Shown here in pieces: positions 28,696 to 38,355 of a DNA stretch of 60,331 nucleotides. Positions within the stretch are counted from its first letter, which is position 1; each line of letters begins with the position of its first letter. A model generated the notes under the pieces. It was not told the DNA's origin. It was given only the letters and a program-made list of their open reading frames with translations, and did no database searches. Source of the DNA: Pararhodobacter sp. (GTDB lineage: Bacteria > Pseudomonadota > Alphaproteobacteria > Rhodobacterales > Rhodobacteraceae). The DNA is taken from positions 1 to 60,331 of the forward strand of contig JAFIEG010000017.1 in NCBI GenBank assembly GCA_020832665.1, read 5' to 3'. A program made the position numbers and the translations under genes.

Positions 28696-28742
28696 CCTTA
28701 ACCCATCAGTTTGGTTTTTTGGGCACAACCCGGGGAGAGGTG

Positions 28743-29795
28743 ATGCTGCAGGAACGGATCGAGGGTAAATGGCTTGCCGCCTTTCGCCGCGTGCTGGCCC
28801 TCAACGGCATCGGCGAGGGCACGAAGGTTGCCATCCTGTCGGAAACCCAGTCGCGGCCAGTGCTTGTGCATCTGAGCGAACTTGCCGCGCATGATCTGGG
28901 CGCCGAATTCTGCATGATCTGCATGCCCACCCCGGCGCAGAGCGCGCCGGTGCCGGTGAAATCAACAGGCACAAGCTGGGCCATCCAGGGCAATTGCGCG
29001 GTGATCGAGGCGCTCAAGCTTGTCGAAGTGATCGTCGATTGCACTGTCGAGGGACTCATCCACGCCCCCGAATGGCCCGAGATCGAGGAGGCGGGCAACA
29101 CCCGCCTGCTGGTCATCACCAACGAACACCCCGAGATACTGGAACGGCTGGAGCCCACCGCCGAACTGGGTCCGCGTGTCGAGCGCGGCATCGAAATGCT
29201 GCGCGCGGCCAGCCACATGCATGTCACCTCGCCCGCCGGCACCGATCTGCATGTCGATCTCAAGGGCGCGCCCTGCGGCGGCACCGCCGGTTTCGGCACC
29301 ACGCCGGGTGCCGTGGCGCACTGGCCCGGCGGGCTGTGCCTGGCCTTTCCCGGCGAGCGCTGCGTCAATGGCCGCATCGTCATGGCGCCGGGCGACATGA
29401 ACCTGACCTTCAAGACCACGCTCGCCAGCCGCATCGATTTCACGATCGAGGATGATTTCATCACCAGTATCACAGGCGACGGCATCGATGCGCTGCATTT
29501 TCGCGAATATCTCGAAGCCTGGGACGACCCCAACGCCTGGGGCATGAGCCATGTCGGCTGGGGCATGAACCCGGCCACGCGCTGGGTGTCGGCGGCGATG
29601 TATGACAAGCGCGACATGCAGGCGGTCGAGTTTCGCGCGCTGGCGGGCTCGTTTTTGTGGTCCACCGGCGCCAATCAATATGCCGGGCGCTGGACGCTGG
29701 GCCATTTCGACCTGCCGATGCGCAACTGCACCATCACGCTTGATGGCCAGACGGTTGTGAAGGACGGCGCCCTGACAGGAGAGCTTGCACAATGA
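28743..29795 (+). CDS. NicX-like metal-dependent ring-cleavage dioxygenase (M29-type fold)
   Basis: This 350-aa protein has the same length as Pseudomonas NicX (2,5-dihydroxypyridine 5,6-dioxygenase) and shares its metal-site segments: H270 in MSHVGWGMNP, and H321 and D323 in GHFDLPMRNC, equivalent to the His-His-Asp iron triad of NicX as I recall it. Other shared blocks are GTDLHVDL, HWPGGLCLAFP and FREYLEAWDDPNAWG. It would open a hydroxylated pyridine-type ring using Fe(II) and O2. Database annotation may call it a leucyl aminopeptidase because of the M29 fold. ATG 28743 has GGGGAG upstream. The next gene overlaps its stop by 4 nt. Confidence 0.72.
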   Translation: MLQERIEGKWLAAFRRVLALNGIGEGTKVAILSETQSRPVLVHLSELAAHDLGAEFCMICMPTPAQSAPVPVKSTGTSWAIQGNCAVIEALKLVEVIVDCTVEGLIHAPEWPEIEEAGNTRLLVITNEHPEILERLEPTAELGPRVERGIEMLRAASHMHVTSPAGTDLHVDLKGAPCGGTAGFGTTPGAVAHWPGGLCLAFPGERCVNGRIVMAPGDMNLTFKTTLASRIDFTIEDDFITSITGDGIDALHFREYLEAWDDPNAWGMSHVGWGMNPATRWVSAAMYDKRDMQAVEFRALAGSFLWSTGANQYAGRWTLGHFDLPMRNCTITLDGQTVVKDGALTGELAQ

Positions 29796-31150
29796 ACGAA
29801 GCCGCCCCTCTTTCCGTCGCCGTCACCGGCGCGATCCCGTCATCCGACCCGGGGGATTACTACGATCTCAGCCGCATCCGCCCCGAGGTGCTGGAAAAGC
29901 TGCGCCGGCTGAACGAGCTGGGCGCGACGCGATTCGCGCAACGGGCAAGGGCGGTCGATGATGCGGCCTCCTTCCCCGAGGAAAACTACCGCGACCTTGC
30001 CGAGGAAGGCTTTCTCAACCTGTGCATCCCCGAGGAATTCGGCGGCTGGGGCTGGTCCCTGGGCGAATACGCCATGGCCGGCGCCGAGATCGCCAAGCAT
30101 TGCGGGGCCACTGCGCTGACTTTCAACATGCACACCATGTCGATGGCCTGGTCGCGCTTCATGTTCGACATGCCCAATCTGACGGATGAAGAGCGCGCCG
30201 CCTTCGCACCGCTGCGCGCGCGACAGTTTCGCCGCGCCGTGGCCGAGCGCGCGATCTATTCGCAGCCCATCTCCGAGGGCGGGCAGAACTGGACATCAAA
30301 GCCCAACCAGACCCAGTGCCGCGCCGTCGAGGGGGGCTGGCGCATCAACGGGTTCAAGAAATTCGCCTCGCTGGCGGGGTATTGCGATTACTACACCATC
30401 GTCTGCACCGAGGTGTTCGAGGGCATCGAGCCGCGCCATGAGGACACGCTGCTTTTCGTGGTGCACAAGGACAACCCCGGCCTTTCGGTCAAGGGCGAGT
30501 GGGACCCGCTGGGCATGCGCGGCACCAATTCGCGCGATCTGATCCTCAAGGATGTCTTTGTCACCGAAGATGACCTGCTCATGCCGCGCGGCATCTTCAA
30601 CAAGACCCTGCCCAACTGGCCGCATATGATGGCCACACTCAGCCCTACCTATATGGGGCTGGCGCAGGGCGCCTATGATTTCACCATCGCCTATCTGCGC
30701 GGCCAGATCCCCGGCCAGCCGCCCATCGACCGGCGCATGTATGCCACCAAGCGCGTGGCGGTCAGCAAGATGTATGCGCGCCTGGCCTCGATCCGCGCGC
30801 TGTGGTGGCAGGCATTCGGCGAGGCGAAGGGCTTTCCCTCCAGACCCGAGGTGATGCGCATGTATGCGGCGCAATACAACGTCATGGAGGGCGCGCAGGA
30901 GCTGGCGGCGCTGGCCATCCGCACCTGCGGCGGGCAGTCGATGCTGCGTTCGCTGCCGCTTGAGCGGATCTATCGCGACAGCCGCTGCGGGGCGCTGATG
31001 CTGCCCTACACCTCCGAGATCATGGAGGATTACATCGGCGTGCTGGCGCTTTACGACATGGACGAGCTTGACGGCGCGCCCGGCGACGAGGGCGGCGCGC
31101 GCAGCTCGCTGTGGCGCGGCGATGCCGGCTCGCTGAAGGGGCTGCGCTGA
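29792..31150 (+). CDS. Acyl-CoA-dehydrogenase-fold flavoprotein without the catalytic Glu; probable FMNH2 monooxygenase
   Basis: This 452-aa protein has the ACAD fold: a helical N-domain (EENYRDLAEEGFLNLCIPEEFGGWGWSLGEYAMAGAEIAKHCG), a beta-domain (GGWRINGFKKFASLAGYCDYY) and a C-terminal helical domain (IRTCGGQSMLRSLPLERIYRDSRCG). In true dehydrogenases the last segment ends in YEGT with the catalytic Glu; here it is LMLPYTSE, with P405 at that position. Loss of the base is seen in flavin-dependent hydroxylases of the same fold (group D), and a flavin reductase gene sits downstream at 34656. I infer hydroxylation of the substrate, but a non-catalytic or oxidase role is possible. Confidence 0.7.
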   Translation: MNEAAPLSVAVTGAIPSSDPGDYYDLSRIRPEVLEKLRRLNELGATRFAQRARAVDDAASFPEENYRDLAEEGFLNLCIPEEFGGWGWSLGEYAMAGAEIAKHCGATALTFNMHTMSMAWSRFMFDMPNLTDEERAAFAPLRARQFRRAVAERAIYSQPISEGGQNWTSKPNQTQCRAVEGGWRINGFKKFASLAGYCDYYTIVCTEVFEGIEPRHEDTLLFVVHKDNPGLSVKGEWDPLGMRGTNSRDLILKDVFVTEDDLLMPRGIFNKTLPNWPHMMATLSPTYMGLAQGAYDFTIAYLRGQIPGQPPIDRRMYATKRVAVSKMYARLASIRALWWQAFGEAKGFPSRPEVMRMYAAQYNVMEGAQELAALAIRTCGGQSMLRSLPLERIYRDSRCGALMLPYTSEIMEDYIGVLALYDMDELDGAPGDEGGARSSLWRGDAGSLKGLR

Positions 31151-31212
31151 GGGATGGGTTGTCGCTCGGTTCCGTCAGCGTTCCTGCCATTTGAATGGCC
31201 GTTTGGCTGGTT

Positions 31213-31264
31213 CCCGCCCGTGCGCAAGCACGGGCAGCGCCCGCCCGCCCCCCAGGCGGGCGCT
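31213..31264 (+). repeat. GC-rich double-hairpin repeat, copy 1
   Basis: GCCCGTGC-GCAA-GCACGGGC is followed at once by a second stem made of GCGCCCGCC and GGCGGGCGC. The same about 52-nt sequence appears in reverse orientation at 52016-52069 and partly at 36266-36292. It fills much of the 177-nt gap (31151-31327), which also contains the dyad GCCATT-TG-AATGGC. Confidence 0.65.
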
Positions 31265-31327
31265 ACCGCGCCCACCTCGGGCGCGCGCTGCCCGTGCAGC
31301 GAAGCTGGCCCGAAGGTATCCTGACCC

Positions 31328-32620
31328 ATGCCCAGCCAGCGCATCCAGATCCACCGCCTCATTCCCGCCGACCCGGCCGCCATCTGGGCCGTGGCGCGCG
31401 ATTTCTGCGGGCTCTGGCACCCCGCCATGGCCAGCTGCCGCGAAGAGCGCGATGCGCGCGGCGCGCTGATCCGCGCCTTCACCGTGCATGGCGAGGAGAC
31501 GCTCTATCGCGAGCAACTCACCTGGTTTTCCGACAGCGACCGCTCCCTGGGCTATACCCATCTGCAGGGCATCGAGGGTTGCGAGCGCTACGATGCCCGC
31601 CTGACCGTCAGCCCCGCAAAGGCCGGCGGCAGCGCCGTCACCTGGTCGGCCGAGATCACCGCCCCCGCCGCGCGCATCAAGGCCATCGCCTCTGGCACCG
31701 AGGCGGTTTTCGCCGCCGGGATCGAGGCGCTGGCAAGCGCTCCCGCGCCCGAAACCGCCCCCGCCCCCCTGCCCGCCCCGGCCAGCCACGCGCCGCTTGT
31801 GCTTGACGATCTGCCGCGCCTGGCGCTGTCGGTCACCCCCGCCCCCGCCGGGCGCGAGGATACAATGTGCCTGTTCCTGCACGGCATCGGCGGCCAGCGC
31901 GACAACTGGGATGCGCAGCTTGGCCTTGCCGGCACCGTCATGCGCGCAGCGGCGATGGATCTGCGCGGCTATGGCGGCTCCGGCCTGGGCTCGCGCCAGA
32001 GCACCATCGACGATTATTGCGACGACATCGCCCGTGTGGCCGATCATTTCGGTGCTGCCCGGCTGGTGCTGGCGGGGCTTTCCTATGGCTCGTGGATCGC
32101 CACCTCATTCGCCATGCGCCACCCGGGCCGGCTGGCCGGGCTGGTGCTTTCGGGCGGCTGCACCGGCATGTCCGAGGCCGGCCCCGACGAGCGCGAGGCG
32201 TTTCGCATCAGCCGCGAGGTGCCGCTTAACGCGGGCCAGGTGCCCGCCGATTTCGCCCCCGCCGTGGTGAAAGCCATCGCCGGGCCGAATGCCGATGCCG
32301 CCATGCGCGAAGCGCTCTTGCAATCCATGGCCTCGATCCAAGCCGAGACTTATCGCGATGCCTTGAATTGCTTCACCAACCCGTTGGAACGCTTCGATTT
32401 TTCGCGCCTGACCATGCCGGTGCTGATGATGACCGGCGAGCATGACCGCCTCGCCCCGCCCGAGGAAATCCGCGCCGTTGCCGGGCGGATATGGGACAGC
32501 GCCCATCGCCCCGATCTGCGCTTCGAGGTGATCGAGGGCGCCGGCCATGTCTGCAATCTGGAAGCGCCCGAACAGTATAACCGCCACCTGCTGGCCTTCT
32601 TGCGGAAACTCGCGCCATGA
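31328..32620 (+). CDS. SRPBCC domain fused to an alpha/beta hydrolase
   Basis: This 430-aa protein has two domains. Residues about 1-140 are SRPBCC/START-like (PADPAAIWAVARDFCGLWHPAM, GYTHLQGIEGCERYDARLTV, VTWSAEI). A Pro/Ala linker (about 141-158) leads to a hydrolase domain with oxyanion motif LFLHGIGGQRDNW, nucleophile S252 in GLSYGSW, acid D373 in GEHDRLAPP and H407 in GAGHVCNLEAP. In the nicotinate pathway a serine hydrolase (NicD) deformylates the product of NicX, so a similar job on the ring-opened product is plausible. The TetR gene overlaps its stop by 4 nt. The fusion is not one I know as standard. Confidence 0.8.
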   Translation: MPSQRIQIHRLIPADPAAIWAVARDFCGLWHPAMASCREERDARGALIRAFTVHGEETLYREQLTWFSDSDRSLGYTHLQGIEGCERYDARLTVSPAKAGGSAVTWSAEITAPAARIKAIASGTEAVFAAGIEALASAPAPETAPAPLPAPASHAPLVLDDLPRLALSVTPAPAGREDTMCLFLHGIGGQRDNWDAQLGLAGTVMRAAAMDLRGYGGSGLGSRQSTIDDYCDDIARVADHFGAARLVLAGLSYGSWIATSFAMRHPGRLAGLVLSGGCTGMSEAGPDEREAFRISREVPLNAGQVPADFAPAVVKAIAGPNADAAMREALLQSMASIQAETYRDALNCFTNPLERFDFSRLTMPVLMMTGEHDRLAPPEEIRAVAGRIWDSAHRPDLRFEVIEGAGHVCNLEAPEQYNRHLLAFLRKLAP

Positions 32621-33324
32621 GCGCCCCTGCCCGCCAGCCGCTTTCGCGCCGCGAGGCCAACCGCCGCGAGCGCGAGGCGCGCATCCTGCAAGCCGCGCTG
32701 AGCGTGTTCTCGCAAGCGGGCTATTCGGGCGCCACGATGGATGCCGTGGCGGCCGAGGCGGGCATGTCGAAACCCACGCTTTACCAGTATTTTGCGTCGA
32801 AAGAGGCGCTGTTTCAGGCCATGCTGCTGCCGCATGGCGAACGCATGCTCGACCCGTTCGCGCATCCATCGGGCAAGGGGCTGGCGGCGGATCTGCTGAA
32901 TTTCGCATGGGCCTATGCCGAAACCGTCATGAACCCCGAAATGCTGGCGCTGGCGCGGCTTATCATCGGCGAGGTGCAGCGCTTCCCCGAGATCGGCGCC
33001 GCCTATCAGGCCGCCGGGCCCGACCGGCTGCTGGGCGGCATGATGACCTGGCTGGAGGGCCGGCGCGATGCCGGCCAGCTGGTTTTCGATGATGCCGAAC
33101 TGGCCGCGCAGGATTTGTGGGGGCTTATCCTTTCGGCCCCGCGCACCCAGGCGCTGCACCACCCCGCCAACCCGCCCGGCCGCAATGAACTGGCGCGCTA
33201 CATCCATAACGGGCTGCGCGTGTTTCTGCGCGCCTATGCAAGCGAGCCGCAACGCGAATTATCCGCGCTCGAGGCGGCGATAACCGCCCGGGCCCATCCG
33301 ACAGGGACAGAAGATGACGCTTGA
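32617..33324 (+). CDS. TetR/AcrR-family transcriptional regulator
   Basis: This 235-aa protein has an N-terminal TetR DNA-binding domain (ILQAALSVFSQAGYSGATMDAVAAEAGMSKPTLYQYFASKEALFQAM, about 24-70) and a C-terminal ligand/dimer domain. It overlaps the hydrolase gene by 4 nt upstream and the glutamine-synthetase-like gene by 11 nt downstream, so it is embedded in the catabolic operon. It probably represses that operon until a pathway compound binds. The repeated ATTCGGAAAA before the first gene is a possible target. Confidence 0.88.
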   Translation: MSAPARQPLSRREANRREREARILQAALSVFSQAGYSGATMDAVAAEAGMSKPTLYQYFASKEALFQAMLLPHGERMLDPFAHPSGKGLAADLLNFAWAYAETVMNPEMLALARLIIGEVQRFPEIGAAYQAAGPDRLLGGMMTWLEGRRDAGQLVFDDAELAAQDLWGLILSAPRTQALHHPANPPGRNELARYIHNGLRVFLRAYASEPQRELSALEAAITARAHPTGTEDDA

Positions 33325-34654
33325 CGAATACATCGCCGACCCCGAAAGCCGCTTTGCCACGGTGGCGATGACCGATACCAACGGGCTGCTGCGCGGCCAG
33401 ATGGTGGCGGTGGACAGCCTGAAACGCATGCTCACCGCCGGCATGGGCATGGCGCGCGCGCAGCTTGCGCTCGATCCCACCGATGCCTTCCTCACCCTGC
33501 CCGGCGTCACCGACGAGGCCGGCACCTTTGCCGACGAGCCGCTGAAGCTTGACCCGTCCAGCACGCGCCGCCTGCCCTGGTCGAAGCCGGGCCATGACCT
33601 GCTGATCCTTTCGAACTGGACGGGCGCGGCCGGGTCCCTGTGCCCGCGCGCGATCCTGCAATCGGTGCTTGCGCGCGCGGGCGAAAGCGGGTTGGCGCCA
33701 CGCTACGGGATGGAGCTGGAATACACACTTTTTGACGAGACGCCCGATTCGGCGCGCGCCAAGGGCTGGCGCGATCTCAAACCCGCCACGCCGCATGCCA
33801 GCCATGACCTGATCCTCTATCAGGCGGTGCAGACCGAATGGTACGAAGCTGTGGCCGGCATCTGCGAGGCGCTGAAGATCGACCTGGCCAAGATGCACGA
33901 GGAAATCGGCGCGGGCTTCATGGAAGCCTGCATCGGCGCCGGCGAGGGGCTGGAACCGGCCGACCAGATGGTGCTCTTGAAGAACTTCATCCGCGCGCTG
34001 GCGCTCAGGCAGGGGCGCTCGGTCACTTTCATGCCGCGCTGGAGCGAGCAGGCCGACAGCCAGTCGATCCATCTGCATGTCAGCATCAAGGACATGGACG
34101 GCAAGCCGCTGTTCTTCGACGCGGGCGCCGAGAACGGCGTCGGGCAGAGCCTGCGCCATTTCATCGGCGGGTTGCAGGCGCATCTGGGCGATCTGACGCT
34201 GATGTTCCTGCCCACGGTCAACAGCTACCGCCGCTTTGTCGAGGGCACCTTTGCCCCGCCCGGCCTGACATGGGGCTATGAGAACCGCACCACCTGCTTT
34301 CGAATCGTCGGCCATGATGCAGGCACGATGCGGGTGGAAAACCGCCTGCCCGGCGCCGATACCAACCCCTATCTGACCGTCGCCGCCACCGTCGCCGCCG
34401 GGGTCGCCGGCATCATCGGGCAGATCGAGCCCGAGGCGCCGGTGACCGGCTCGGGCTATGGCCAGCCGCCTGTGCGCGATTTCGCCCGCTCCATGCCCGA
34501 GGCCATCGAGCGGTTGAAGGGCTCTGACTTTGCGCGCGACTGGCTGGGCGATGAATTCGTCGAGGGTTTCGCCGCCACCCGCCAGCACCAGTTCAACGAG
34601 TTCGCCGCCAAGGTGCCCGATACCGAACTTCAACGCTTCTTCGAGCTGGGATAG
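33314..34654 (+). CDS. Glutamine-synthetase-like ligase (gamma-glutamyl-amine synthetase type)
   Basis: This 446-aa protein has the complete GS catalytic set: GMELEYTLFD (ExE metal ligands), MHEEIGAGFMEACI, QSIHLHVSI (HxH) and MRVENRLPGADTNPYL (RxExR). The N-terminal beta-grasp region is short, as in type III enzymes such as PuuA or aniline gamma-glutamylating enzymes. In catabolic clusters these proteins ligate glutamate to an amine substrate. That fits removal or activation of an amino-substituted compound here, but the substrate is not known. True housekeeping GS is unlikely from length and context. Confidence 0.8.
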   Translation: MTLDEYIADPESRFATVAMTDTNGLLRGQMVAVDSLKRMLTAGMGMARAQLALDPTDAFLTLPGVTDEAGTFADEPLKLDPSSTRRLPWSKPGHDLLILSNWTGAAGSLCPRAILQSVLARAGESGLAPRYGMELEYTLFDETPDSARAKGWRDLKPATPHASHDLILYQAVQTEWYEAVAGICEALKIDLAKMHEEIGAGFMEACIGAGEGLEPADQMVLLKNFIRALALRQGRSVTFMPRWSEQADSQSIHLHVSIKDMDGKPLFFDAGAENGVGQSLRHFIGGLQAHLGDLTLMFLPTVNSYRRFVEGTFAPPGLTWGYENRTTCFRIVGHDAGTMRVENRLPGADTNPYLTVAATVAAGVAGIIGQIEPEAPVTGSGYGQPPVRDFARSMPEAIERLKGSDFARDWLGDEFVEGFAATRQHQFNEFAAKVPDTELQRFFELG

Positions 34655-34655
34655 C

Positions 34656-35162
34656 ATGATGGACCTTCGCAGCCGCTTTCTGGAAGGCATGAGCCGCGCC
34701 GCCACCTTCGTCGCCGTGGTCACCACCGACGGCCCCGGCGGGCGCGACGGGGTGACGGTGTCCTCGCTCAGCCCGGTTTCGGCCGATGGCGAGGCGCCGG
34801 CTCTGCTGGCCTGCATCCACCACCAGAGCCCGGCGGCGGTGGCGATTCTAAAAAACGAGGGTTTTTGCGCCAATCTGCTGCATGAAAGCCAGCAACAGGA
34901 GGCCAATCTCTTTGCCGGGCGCAGCGCCGCGGGCGCACGTTCAGCGCGCTTCGACGGGCTTGGCTGGAAAGCCGGCGCCGCCGGCCAGCCGCAGCTTGAC
35001 GGCGCCACCGCCGCCTTTCACTGCCGGCTGGCAACGGCGCTGTTGTGGCAGACACATTACATCATCGTCGGGCAGGTCAACGCGGTGGAACTGTCCGACG
35101 ACCCCGCCGCGCTGCTTTACGGCCAGCGCAGCTATCGCAAATCGGTCGGGCTGGAGGAATGA
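34656..35162 (+). CDS. Flavin reductase-like protein (reductase partner of a two-component monooxygenase)
   Basis: This 168-aa protein matches the flavin-reductase-like domain: ATFVAVVTTDGPGGRDGVTVSSLSPVSADGEAPALLACIHHQSPA near the N-terminus, then FCANLLHESQQ and a C-terminal QTHYIIVGQVNAVEL. Such proteins reduce FMN or FAD with NAD(P)H and supply it to a separate oxygenase. The likely partner is the ACAD-fold protein at 29792. It starts 1 nt after the GS-like stop; ATG 34656 and 34659 are both possible. Confidence 0.8.
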   Translation: MMDLRSRFLEGMSRAATFVAVVTTDGPGGRDGVTVSSLSPVSADGEAPALLACIHHQSPAAVAILKNEGFCANLLHESQQQEANLFAGRSAAGARSARFDGLGWKAGAAGQPQLDGATAAFHCRLATALLWQTHYIIVGQVNAVELSDDPAALLYGQRSYRKSVGLEE

Positions 35163-35245
35163 CCGGGCCCGAACCGGACCCGAACCAAGCCCAAACCGCG
35201 CGCAAACAAAAAGAACCAAACCACCGAAACCACCAACCGGGAGAC
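35163..35245 (+). promoter_or_regulatory. T-free CA-rich leader with 11-nt triplicate before tctC
   Basis: There are 83 consecutive bases without a T between the flavin reductase stop and the tctC ribosome site. It includes three imperfect 11-nt units, CCCGAACCGGA (35168-35178), CCCGAACCAAG (35179-35189) and CCCAAACCGCG (35190-35200). In RNA this would be an unstructured, U-free leader that could favour loading of ribosomes on the highly expressed binding protein. Function is inferred. Confidence 0.4.
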
Positions 35246-35249
35246 TGAC

Positions 35250-36203
35250 ATGAAAAAACCCCTTACCCTTGCCGGCGCCCTGGCCGGCACCGCGCTCGCC
35301 GCCGGGCTTGCCGCCGGCTCTGCCGCCGCCGATTACCCCAGCCAGCCGGTCAGCTTTGTCGTGCCCTGGCCGCCGGGCGATCTGGAGGACATTCTCACCA
35401 GGCTGATCGCCGATGCCTTTCAGGATGAATACGGCGTGCCGGCCTCGGTGCTCAACCGCCCCGGCGGCGGCGGCGGGCCGTTCCCCGGCGCCATCGATGT
35501 TGCCACCGCCGCGCCCGATGGCCATACCATCGGCTCTTTCGTGCTGGATGTGCCGCTGATCGGCCACGAGATCGGCATCCCCGAACTCAGCCCGCCGGTG
35601 TTCGAGCCCGTCGGCATCTTCCTCAACTACCCTTTCGTGATCGCCGCCGGTGCCGACGCGCCCTATTCGACGATGGAGGAGCTGGCCGAATACGCGCAGG
35701 ATAACGCCGTCTCGCTGGGCCATTTCGGCATCGTTGCCACGCCGACGCAGGTTTCCTTCGCGCTGGCCAGCCAGATGGGTTTCGAATGGGGCCAGGATGC
35801 CGCCTTCGATGCGCTTGATTGCAACACGCTGGCCTCGGGCGATGCCGATGTCATCAACACCACTCTGCAGCTGGTGCTGCCCTGCATCGACGATCTGACC
35901 ATCCTGGTGTCGATCACCGATGAGCGCATCCCGCTGACACCCGATGTGCCCACCGTGGGCGAGATCGCCCCCGAGCTGGCGCTGACCACCTGGAACGGGC
36001 TGTTCGTGCATCGCGACACGCCAGCCGAGGTGCGCGAACGCATCGCCGTGGTGGCCGAGCGGGTTGTGCTGGGCGAGCAGGCGCAGCGCATCGCCGCCGA
36101 TACCGGCGCCGAGGTGTTCTGGCAGGATGCCGAAGCCTCGGCGGCGCGCATCGCGCATGACATGGAAACACTGGGGCGCATCGGCGAGCTCTTGCCGGAA
36201 TGA
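35250..36203 (+). CDS. tctC: Tripartite tricarboxylate transporter periplasmic binding protein
   Basis: This 317-aa TctC/Bug-family protein has a signal peptide (MKKPLTLAGALAGTALAAGL..., cleavage likely after AAA at 27). The family pattern follows: YPSQPVSFVVPWPPGDLEDILTRLIADAF, VLNRPGGGGG, and AAPDGHTIGSFVLDV. These proteins bind small carboxylates or aromatic acids in the periplasm. The tctB and tctA genes follow. Being in the catabolic operon, it probably binds the pathway substrate. A clear ribosome site (GGGAG) precedes the ATG. Confidence 0.9.
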   Translation: MKKPLTLAGALAGTALAAGLAAGSAAADYPSQPVSFVVPWPPGDLEDILTRLIADAFQDEYGVPASVLNRPGGGGGPFPGAIDVATAAPDGHTIGSFVLDVPLIGHEIGIPELSPPVFEPVGIFLNYPFVIAAGADAPYSTMEELAEYAQDNAVSLGHFGIVATPTQVSFALASQMGFEWGQDAAFDALDCNTLASGDADVINTTLQLVLPCIDDLTILVSITDERIPLTPDVPTVGEIAPELALTTWNGLFVHRDTPAEVRERIAVVAERVVLGEQAQRIAADTGAEVFWQDAEASAARIAHDMETLGRIGELLPE

Positions 36204-36265
36204 TCCGCCGGGCTTCGCAAGGGGCAAGAGGTCTGATGCCGGGGTCGGTTGATGGCATCGGTTGG

Positions 36266-36292
36266 AGCACGGGCAGTGCCCGCCCGGGGGCG
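36266..36292 (+). repeat. GC-rich repeat, partial copy between tctC and tctB
   Basis: AGCACGGGCAGTGCCCGCCC with following GGGGGCG matches the core of the repeats at 31213-31264 and 52016-52069. GGTCGGTTGATGGCATCGG, resembling the start of the mosaic blocks, lies just upstream (36243-36261). Confidence 0.5.
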
Positions 36293-36296
36293 CGTG

Positions 36297-36863
36297 ATGG
36301 CTGAGGCCGGCGCGCCCCCGCACGCCCCGCATCATGGCCGCTCCCAGCGGCCTGCCCGGCGCACCCGCCAGCCAGGTGAGCTACCATTCGCGGTGCTGTT
36401 CCTGGCCTTCACGCTGTGGCTTTACATTCATCTGGGAACCGAGGCGCGCTGGATCGCGCGCTTGACATGGTTTCAGCAACCGGCGCTGTGGCCGGCGATT
36501 GCCATCCACGGCATGCTGGCCTTTGGCGTGGTGAATCTGTTCGCCAGCCTGTTGGCGCAAGGCTCGGAAGGCGACCGGCGCGAGCTGCTCACCTGGCTCA
36601 GGGCGCTGGAATATGTCGGCTGGTATCTGGCCTATGCCTGGGCGGTGGGGCAGATCGGCTATCTGCCCGCCACGCTGGCCACGATGCTGCTTCTGGTCTG
36701 GCGGCTGGGCATCGCCACTCGCGTCAGCCTGTTCTGGGCGGCGGCGTTTTCGGTGGCGGTGGTGGTGGTGTTCAAGTCGCTTTTGCGCGTCGGCATTCCC
36801 GGCGGGCGGCTTTATGCGCTGTTCCCGCCCGACTGGCAGCGCTTCCTGTCGGTGTATTTCTGA
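36297..36863 (+). CDS. tctB: Tripartite tricarboxylate transporter small membrane subunit
   Basis: This 188-aa protein has a charged N-terminus and four predicted transmembrane helices (LPFAVLFLAFTLWLYIHLG, PALWPAIAIHGMLAFGVVNLFASL, ALEYVGWYLAYAWAVGQI, ATLATMLLLVWRLG and the following VSLFWAAAFSVAVVVVF), matching TctB. ATG 36297 is chosen over 36249 because the longer form would translate the repeat element. It forms the membrane complex with TctA. Confidence 0.82.
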   Translation: MAEAGAPPHAPHHGRSQRPARRTRQPGELPFAVLFLAFTLWLYIHLGTEARWIARLTWFQQPALWPAIAIHGMLAFGVVNLFASLLAQGSEGDRRELLTWLRALEYVGWYLAYAWAVGQIGYLPATLATMLLLVWRLGIATRVSLFWAAAFSVAVVVVFKSLLRVGIPGGRLYALFPPDWQRFLSVYF

Positions 36864-36876
36864 GGGGAAACGGCCA

Positions 36877-38355
36877 GTGGACACCCTGTTTTCGGCCATC
36901 GAGATCCTTGCCCGCTGGGAGGTGCTGGCAGCACTGGTCATCGGCTCGGTGGGCGGGGTCATCATCGGCGCCATTCCCGGTGTCGGCCCGCCGGTGGCGA
37001 TTGCCATTGCCCTGCCCGCCACCTTCGCCTTTGACCCCATCGTGGGGCTGACCGCGCTTCTGGGCATTTATGGCTCGTCGATGTATGGCGGCGCCATCCC
37101 GGCGATATTGATCAACACGCCGGGCACGCCGGTCAACGCGCTGACCACCTATAACGGCTACCCGATGACACAGCGCGGACAAGCCGCGCGCGCACTGGGG
37201 CTGGCCTATGGCGCCTCGTTCATCGCTGGCGTGTTCTCGGTGCTGTGCCTGATCCTGCTGGCGCCGGTGCTGGCGGTGGTGGCGCCGATGTTCGGCTCGC
37301 GCGAGATCTTCCTTGCCGCGCTTCTGGGCATCGTGCTGGTGATCCTGGCCCATCGCGGGCAGGTGATCGCGGCGGGCATGATGGCCTTTTTCGGCATCTT
37401 CCTGGCCACGGTCGGCATGGAGCCGATCCGCTACACGCGCCGCTTCACCTTCGATCAGGGCTGGCTGGCGCAGGGCATCGACCTGATCGCGGTGGTGCTG
37501 GGGCTGTTTGCCATCAGCCAGGCGCTGGTGCTCCTGATCGAGCCCGACAAGCGCCCCAGCGCGGGGCGCGTTGCCGGCAGCATCTGGCAGGGGATGCGCG
37601 AGATATTGCAGCACAAGCGCGTGGCCGGGGTCTCTTCGGCGACCGGCACCACCATGGGCATCCTGCCCGGCGTCGGCGAGTTCACCGCGCAGTTCTTCAG
37701 CTACACCTACGCGATGAAGACCTCGAAAACGCCCGATGAGTTCGGCAAGGGCAGCCCCGAGGGGCTGATCGCCTCGGAAAGCGCCAACAACGCGGTGCCG
37801 GCGGCGGCGATGATCCCGCTTCTGGCACTGGGCATTCCGGGCGAGGCGCTGACCGCGATGATGCTCTCGGTGTTCTATGTGCACAATGTCGTGCCTGGAC
37901 CTGGGCTGTTTCAGAACAACATGGATTTCATCGTCGCGCTCTATCTGGCGCTCTTGCTGCTCAATATCGCGGTGGTGGCGTTCTTGCTGGTCTCGACCAA
38001 TGCGATCCTCAAGATCATCGAGATCCCGACAAGATTTCTGGGCGCGGCGGTGCTGGTGCTCAGCTTCGTGGGCGCCTATTCGATGCGCAACAGCCTGCTC
38101 GATGTCGCCGTCGCCGCCGGTTTCGGGGTGATCGGTTTCGTGCTGCGCAGGCTCGATCTGCCCATCGTGCCGATCATCCTGGGCATGGTGCTGGGCGACA
38201 TCATGGAAAACCGCCTGCGCACGGCGATGATGCGCGTCGATGGCCCGCTCGATTTCATCAGCCGGCCCATTGCCGCCGGCCTGTTCGCCCTGATCGTTCT
38301 GGTCATTGCGCTTCATCTGCGCACCGCCTGGCAGCAATCGCGCGGGCGGGTCTGA
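36877..38355 (+). CDS. tctA: Tripartite tricarboxylate transporter large membrane subunit
   Basis: This 492-aa protein starts at GTG 36877, with GAGGGGAAA 8-15 nt upstream; an ORF opening further upstream runs through tctB in another frame. Family signatures are GVIIGAIPGVGPPVAIAIALP, LLGIYGSSMYGGAIPAILINTPGTP and GILPGVGEFTAQFFSY, followed by EGLIASESANNAVPAAAMIPLLALGIPGEALTAMML. It has about 11-12 membrane helices and is the sodium- or proton-coupled channel subunit. It is the last gene of the cluster. Confidence 0.93.
   Translation: MDTLFSAIEILARWEVLAALVIGSVGGVIIGAIPGVGPPVAIAIALPATFAFDPIVGLTALLGIYGSSMYGGAIPAILINTPGTPVNALTTYNGYPMTQRGQAARALGLAYGASFIAGVFSVLCLILLAPVLAVVAPMFGSREIFLAALLGIVLVILAHRGQVIAAGMMAFFGIFLATVGMEPIRYTRRFTFDQGWLAQGIDLIAVVLGLFAISQALVLLIEPDKRPSAGRVAGSIWQGMREILQHKRVAGVSSATGTTMGILPGVGEFTAQFFSYTYAMKTSKTPDEFGKGSPEGLIASESANNAVPAAAMIPLLALGIPGEALTAMMLSVFYVHNVVPGPGLFQNNMDFIVALYLALLLLNIAVVAFLLVSTNAILKIIEIPTRFLGAAVLVLSFVGAYSMRNSLLDVAVAAGFGVIGFVLRRLDLPIVPIILGMVLGDIMENRLRTAMMRVDGPLDFISRPIAAGLFALIVLVIALHLRTAWQQSRGRV

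Follow-up and report, generated by a model that had tools for sequence, protein, structure and literature searches.

A conserved alphaproteobacterial operon with a NicX-type dioxygenase of a separate subfamily, and its probable role in the catabolism of a nitrogen-bearing ring compound

We analyzed a 60,331-nucleotide stretch of DNA from Pararhodobacter sp. (NCBI GenBank assembly GCA_020832665.1, contig JAFIEG010000017.1, positions 1 to 60,331), hereafter the window. Nine genes, all on the + strand, span positions 28743-38355. They encode a NicX-like dioxygenase (NICX), an acyl-CoA dehydrogenase (ACAD)-fold protein, a hydrolase fusion, a TetR regulator, a glutamine synthetase (GS)-like ligase, a flavin reductase, and a TctCBA importer. 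An initial annotation had regarded these genes as an island for the degradation of a pyridine-type or aromatic amine compound. The present study compared them with related loci, protein families, solved structures, and known catabolic systems.

Results

NICX is encoded at 28743..29795 and was assigned to the NicX family of Fe(II) ring-cleavage dioxygenases, in which it forms a distinct subfamily. It is followed by the predicted oxygenase component of an ACAD-fold flavin monooxygenase (29792..31150; Pfam Acyl-CoA_dh N, M, and 1) and by a fusion of an SRPBCC domain (Polyketide_cyc2) with a PcaD-like alpha/beta hydrolase (31328..32620; PF10604 at residues 5-137, PF00561 at residues 182-414). The next genes encode a TetR regulator with an AefR-like C-terminal domain (32617..33324; PF00440, PF14246), a GS-like ligase that is probably a glutamyl-organic-amine synthetase (33314..34654; PF00120, E 6e-80), and a flavin reductase, the putative partner of the ACAD-fold oxygenase (34659..35162; PF01613, E 8e-33). 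The tripartite tricarboxylate transporter set is complete by Pfam, with the solute-binding protein TctC (35250..36203; PF03401, E 2e-18), the small membrane subunit TctB (36297..36863, with an uncertain start between 36249 and 36393; PF07331, E 1.6e-07), and the large membrane subunit TctA (36877..38355; PF01970, E 4e-129).

The coordinates and junctions bear out the earlier description of nine mostly overlapping or closely spaced genes on one strand. The NicX-like and ACAD genes share 4 nt (29792-29795), the hydrolase and TetR genes overlap by 4 nt, and the TetR and GS genes by 11 nt. The spacings are 177 nt from ACAD to hydrolase, 1-4 nt from GS to flavin reductase, 87 nt from flavin reductase to TctC, and 13 nt from TctB to TctA. 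None of the nine proteins reached an NCBIfam cut-off. Pfam found no Rieske dioxygenase subunit and no racemase- or isochorismatase-type gene of the NicE/NicF families among the nine; the reported absence of the isomerase NicE and the amidase NicF thus holds for these genes, the rest of the genome not having been searched for NicE/NicF. Promoter and terminator scans gave signals no higher than those in shuffled sequences.

A scan of genome contigs identified 146 NICX relatives. The best 80 loci were retained (group 1; 73-85% identical), from Rhodobacterales, Hyphomicrobiales, and one SAR116 genome. Core genes were counted by tblastn at 44% identity or more in the 72 loci with at least 5.6 kb past NICX, the other eight being left out. 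The full set of six core genes (NicX-like, ACAD-fold, SRPBCC-hydrolase, TetR, GS-like, and flavin reductase) was collinear and on one strand in 63 of these 72 loci, and none of the 72 had a rearranged core. The genes for NICX, ACAD, and hydrolase were found in 72/72 loci, TetR in 71/72, GS in 67/72, and flavin reductase in 63/72. The common gene order for which the initial annotation had proposed a search in other genomes is present, and the six core genes are a conserved operon whose order is fixed across bacterial orders.

The importer is less constant. By the same tblastn threshold, TctC was found in one of 72 loci (L075) and TctB and TctA in none, whereas an amino acid/polyamine/organocation (APC) permease gene was present in 52/72 loci and lay downstream on the same strand in 50 of the 69 loci with 7.6 kb of room. 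Loci in which a TctC gene adjoins the operon are L075 and L140 (81%, a member of the same genus), the pair L230/L231 (63%), and the window itself; in the pair, the operon ends with TctB (32%) and TctA (70-71%). Importers of different types can thus take this place, and TctCBA is one that recurs, in independent places. The proposal that TctCBA belongs to the operon needs to be confined to a few lineages (the one locus among the 72, the window, its congener G004, and G804/G806).

NICX matched the solved structure of NicX (PDB 7cn3) with an E value of 1.2e-57 and had no Pfam or NCBIfam match, M29 included. The M29 aminopeptidase family PF02073 gave no match at E 0.001 in the NICX protein or the whole genome, and an aminopeptidase was ruled out for this reason. 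The NicX report (PMC7910607) lists H265, S302, H318, and D320 as Fe ligands, describes Glu177 as binding N1 and O1 of the substrate and His189 as binding O1, and reports activity on 2,5-dihydroxypyridine only. H270, S307, H321, and D323 of the window NICX align with these four ligands; the triad H270/H321/D323 named in the initial annotation is exact. The Fe ligands were retained in all 80 group-1 rows, except for D320 (79/80), and His105 and His189 were also retained. The position of Glu177 (Thr181 in the window) was occupied by Thr in 80/80 group-1 rows and by Gly or Val in 20/23 rows of a more distant set (group 2, described below), whereas Glu was kept in the 7/7 nic-type rows chosen among plasmid matches.

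In the NICX tree, group 1 (15 rows) formed one clade with support of 100/100, groups 1 and 2 were joined at 100/99, and the nic-type enzymes (9 rows) formed a clade at 100/99; a long-branch warning applies to this tree. L139, a group-2 row with Glu at position 177, fell inside the nic clade. The dioxygenase accordingly groups with NicX-type enzymes rather than aminopeptidases, as the 7cn3 match and the lack of an M29 match also indicate. By alignment and phylogeny, NICX is a NicX-type Fe(II) enzyme of its own subfamily, outside the nic-type clade. Its substrate is probably not 2,5-dihydroxypyridine because the Glu that anchors the ring nitrogen and the 2-oxygen is lost. This loss fits a ring with a substituted nitrogen or without a 2-oxo group. 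The pyridine ring that had been proposed is not supported, with the residue holding the pyridine nitrogen and 2-oxygen replaced in every group-1 row.

In the ACAD-fold protein, the Glu that we take to be the dehydrogenase base is replaced by Pro (motif RDSRCGALMLP) in the alignment; isovaleryl-CoA dehydrogenases use an alternative base position. Pro was found in 81/82 group-1-cluster rows (motif RDSRCG[AS]LMLP; one row unmatched by the pattern) and in 15/15 further ACAD rows, 14 of which are from group 2. The predicted structure was of moderate quality (predicted local distance difference test score, pLDDT, 75.7). The best Foldseek matches were 5gj7 and 5z8t, the latter titled a flavin-containing monooxygenase, and the best PDB identities were 27-28%. 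The flavin reductase gene lies within the operon in the 63 loci that have it. In 18 loci it carries a fused LysR ligand-binding domain, with which 18/18 long forms aligned; in the one fusion submitted to Pfam (L002:15756-16961), PF01613 and PF03466 were matched and a helix-turn-helix was not. The fused form is perhaps a ligand-gated reductase that would respond to the ligand of the pathway. We infer that the ACAD-fold protein is the oxygenase of a two-component flavin monooxygenase, and the flavin-dependent hydroxylation suggested at the outset remains probable given the lost Glu and the reductase in the operon.

The hydrolase nucleophile motif GLS[YL]G was present in 76/78 rows, and the GHxxN motif was widely kept. 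All four NCBIfam matches of the GS-like protein were below cut-off, and it is thus not a GS equivalog, in agreement with the initial annotation, which had called it GS-like. Its flap reads TFAP instead of YEAP (69/70 rows, one unmatched), and the replaced Glu is presumably the ammonia-site residue. TFAP also occurs in the closest solved relatives, 11zs and 5dm3, both of which were deposited as glutamine synthetases. According to PMC11335346, GoaS enzymes glutamylate amines and are reported not to use ammonia, and the aniline system pairs a GS with a glutamine amidotransferase (GATase). A GATase gene is located 3' of the GS-like and reductase genes inside the operon in the near-identical loci L230/L231. 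Cytochrome P450, second GS-like, and GATase genes adjoin the operon in L005, L019, and L022, as do GS-like and GATase genes in L074, while in Sagittula stellata (L240) a GS with 53% identity is encoded beside a GATase and a P450. A 2Fe-2S ferredoxin was noted in the neighbor set of L005 and a similar small gene in L022. The GS-like enzyme is probably a glutamyl-organic-amine synthetase.

Two palindromes were found 5' of NICX. A search for dyads yielded one common to up to 32/87 sequences, versus 1 in each of 10 mononucleotide shuffles, although the kinship of the loci inflates this count. The first palindrome, site A (CTTWACTN4AGTWAAG), had a best score of 13-14/14 in 61/80 loci and less than 11 in 10/80; a score of at least 11 was also reached by 8/400 shuffled sequences. 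With one mismatch at most, 64 copies were detected in 82 loci, 63 of them preceding NICX and one preceding TctC (L082). Site A was also found 5' of TctC in L140 (13/14) and weakly in L230/L231 (11/14). Of 28 genomes or records examined, 25 had a single exact copy and one had two (26/28 in total), compared with 2/28 for the reversed control. The copy in the window, CTTAACCCATCAGTTTGG (28697..28714, + strand; 11/14 matched), is a degenerate probable TetR operator that starts 46 nt 5' of the NICX start codon. Its linkage to the operon suggests that site A is the binding site of TetR.

The second palindrome, site B (GATTTTCGAAAATC), occurs 5' of NICX and, in 13 loci, between an FCD regulator gene and a gene for a gentisate/5-aminosalicylate dioxygenase-like protein (GDO). 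A score of at least 12 before NICX was found in 33 loci with a GDO in the genome and one without (L056), whereas lower scores were found in 14 with and 21 without (Fisher p 1.9e-7, for loci that are related). In front of the window NICX, site B scored 9/14, no better than shuffles; a perfect copy is located in the FCD-GDO gap elsewhere in the same genome (L154). Site B was also noted a few hundred bases 5' of a major facilitator superfamily-type transporter gene in two Mesorhizobium genomes (L190 and L191; Pfam was run on L190). We consider the FCD regulator to be the candidate that binds site B, and the operon is probably co-regulated.

In many loci, the operon is directly preceded by genes for GDO, a fumarylacetoacetate hydrolase (FAH) family protein, a C-N hydrolase, and a flavin-reductase-like protein. 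A local GDO was found in 32/80 loci and also on an Aminobacter plasmid (205 plasmid records had a NICX relative, and the regions of 11 were inspected). The window genome carries GDO (82%) and FAH (75%) on a separate contig (C96), where L154:9731-15301 comprises a GDO-FAH-flavin-binding operon with a divergent FCD regulator and the perfect site B; the gene after this operon resembles, by eye, a sulfoacetaldehyde acetyltransferase. Among 35 genomes that have the operon and no GDO nearby, 13 had one elsewhere and 22 had none at E 1e-40. In genomes of the same genus, a close GDO was present in 9/17 (one fragmented) and a close NICX in 1/17. The GDO-FAH-nitrilase module was therefore rejected as an obligatory part: it is independent and wired in where present.

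The more distant NICX relatives of group 2 (47-58% identity) comprised 37 matches, of which 27 were fetched with flanks (L120-L137, L141, L143, L233-L239) and 10 were left out. They lie in NICX-hydrolase-ACAD-acyl-CoA ligase clusters and also occur outside the class, in five genomes of the same phylum. Among the 27 loci, ACAD was beside NICX in 19, a p-hydroxybenzoate hydroxylase (PHBH)-type FAD hydroxylase without ACAD in three, and an acyl-CoA ligase in 17. Group 2 shares the three catabolic families NICX, hydrolase, and ACAD with the operon. However, it differs in the acyl-CoA ligase (17/27), in having no close GS, and in a single-domain hydrolase wherever a hydrolase was called. Group 2 is apparently another uncharacterized pathway. 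Separately, in a Salipiger abyssi plasmid (L173), genes for a NicX-like protein, a hydrolase, a racemase, and an isochorismatase were observed beside a luciferase-like monooxygenase (LLM) flavin oxidoreductase and two flavin reductases; by gene content, this cluster is of the nic type but differs in its first oxygenase.

Discussion

We consider it probable that the six core genes form an operon under TetR control for the catabolism of a nitrogen-containing ring compound; the reactions, their order, the target of the regulator, and the class of substrate are all deduced from sequence. The mechanism would likely combine gamma-glutamylation of an amine, two-component flavin hydroxylation, NicX-type cleavage, and hydrolysis. 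Import would be through TctCBA in the window and, in most relatives, through the APC permease. Glutamate may then be coupled by the GS-like enzyme to an amino group on the substrate or on an amine released from it. The ACAD-fold protein, supplied with reduced flavin by the flavin reductase, would hydroxylate the ring, the NicX-like Fe(II) enzyme would open it beside the new hydroxyl, and the alpha/beta hydrolase would take off a formyl or acyl piece.

Several observations weigh against this proposal. The GS-like and flavin reductase genes were both missing nearby in 5/72 loci (L064, L065, L068, L072, and L076), and the reductase alone was missing in four more (L049, L053, L054, and L079), with L053 also lacking TetR; some contigs among these incomplete loci end close by. 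Since the GS-like gene is absent in five loci, glutamylation may not be obligatory. In the Foldseek ranking of the ACAD-fold protein, true acyl-CoA dehydrogenases were almost level with monooxygenases, and the fold alone therefore does not decide its function; the PHBH-type hydroxylase that stands without ACAD beside three group-2 NICX genes points to a hydroxylase role. The predicted structure of NICX was poor (pLDDT 49.8) and was not used. No amidase for a final nitrogen-releasing step was present among the nine genes. The gap of 177 nt 5' of the hydrolase gene is atypical, with a gap of at least 100 nt in only 4/75 relatives and a median of 3. Moreover, the site A copy in the window is degenerate, and the exact site was found neither in the window's genome nor in that of the congener G004.

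Two narrower versions of the proposed operon function, which do not exclude it, name a substrate. One is the degradation of a primary aromatic amine of the aminophenol, aminobenzoate, or aminopyridine type, in which, following the pattern of the aniline system, glutamylation would be the opening step and the oxygenase would in fact act on the gamma-glutamyl amide. We regard this version as possible, though on the doubtful side. The GS-like family with its lost flap Glu agrees with it, as do the GATase in L230/L231, the flanking P450, GS-like, and GATase genes of L005, L019, and L022, the GS-like and GATase genes of L074, and the 53%-identical GS beside GATase and P450 in Sagittula stellata. 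However, GATase is absent among the nine window genes and is inside the operon only in L230/L231, GS is missing in 5/72 loci, and no Rieske dioxygenase is among the nine. In the other version, to which we assign a rather low probability, the cluster is identical with the operon for the catabolism of homarine (N-methylpicolinate) that was described in 2026. Hydroxylation, C5-C6 cleavage, and deformylation would give N-methylglutamate and glutamate, and the GS-like enzyme would catch methylamine or have a side activity. That operon, homABCDER, is said to consist of five enzymes and a regulator, to occur in Rhodobacterales, SAR116, and SAR11, and to yield N-methylglutamate. The five enzymes and TetR found here are alike in number, a SAR116 genome (L079) carries the operon without a detected reductase gene, and the loss of the residue holding the ring nitrogen suits an N-methylated ring. 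C5-C6 cleavage and deformylation of a 2-carboxylated ring would also leave a glutamate carbon skeleton. Two Sulfitobacter loci (L064, L065) carry glutamate-synthase-like (MgsABC-like) genes in the vicinity of the operon; in L064, plasmid-replication-like genes were seen by eye between the two. In contrast, no NICX match (E 1e-60) was obtained in genomes smaller than 2.5 Mb among 385 genomes of the class, and an MgsC-like gene is absent from the window genome. Such a gene was found, at E 1e-140, in 25/32 operon genomes versus 13/27 relatives without the operon (Fisher p 0.028), a difference confounded by kinship. On chemical grounds, a pyridinium ring is also an awkward target for electrophilic hydroxylation by a flavin enzyme.

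Three further explanations were weighed. A plain variant of the nicotinate/picolinate pathway that opens 2,5-dihydroxypyridine would account for the NicX-like and hydrolase pair and the identical Fe site, but it was rejected and is very improbable: Glu177 is absent in 80/80 rows versus present in 7/7 nic-type plasmid rows, NICX is in a separate clade, and NicE and NicF are missing among the nine genes. That two or more unrelated units are merely adjacent in this genome seems hardly credible; TctCBA is rarely linked and GS and reductase are sometimes missing, whereas the order is fixed across bacterial orders, genes overlap, and they share one operator-like palindrome. The degradation of indole-3-acetic acid (iad/iac) was considered for the ACAD-fold oxygenase and set aside; iac includes such an oxygenase, and neither iac nor iad is known to include a NicX-type gene.

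The operon shares features with several known systems. It resembles the nicotinate operon (NicC, NicD, NicX, NicE, and NicF) in clustering a hydroxylase, a NicX-type Fe(II) dioxygenase with the same Fe ligands, and an alpha/beta hydrolase. However, the nic hydroxylase is a single-component FAD-dependent enzyme where an ACAD-fold protein is encoded here, and the present operon has the SRPBCC fusion and a GS-like enzyme, lacks NicE/NicF, and encodes a dioxygenase with Glu177 and Glu308 replaced. The aniline dioxygenase systems (AtdA1-A5 and NpaA1-A5) also place a GS-like enzyme in a ring-oxidizing operon, with GATase as in the two near-identical relatives L230/L231, but use a Rieske dioxygenase instead of a flavin monooxygenase and NicX-like cleavage. 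DszC, HsaA, TdsC, and KijD3, which are two-component ACAD-fold flavin monooxygenases, share the fold, the lost dehydrogenase base, and a separate flavin reductase; the low PDB identities make enzymes of this type distant from the ACAD-fold protein. The homarine operon, whose reported distribution overlaps, is possibly the same operon. Our literature searches found no description of this gene combination, most subscription papers being outside their reach. The novelty is provisional because the 2026 paper on homarine catabolism, which is cited in PMC13390433, may already describe this operon.

We tentatively suggest, at somewhat less than an even chance, a more specific picture of the proposed operon. 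A NicX-type enzyme without the anchor for the ring nitrogen and 2-oxo group would open an N-substituted or gamma-glutamylated ring and would be linked through an operator to a gentisate-dioxygenase-type module. The two ring-opening branches would serve one class of substrate, and group 2 would be the CoA-thioester counterpart.

A large sister clade of NicX that shares its iron site but has an altered substrate pocket points to at least one more natural compound as a target of this chemistry. The fixed operon is spread over soil, freshwater, and marine Alphaproteobacteria. Its genes define a small set of enzymes for activity assays and may serve as a metagenomic marker of the process.

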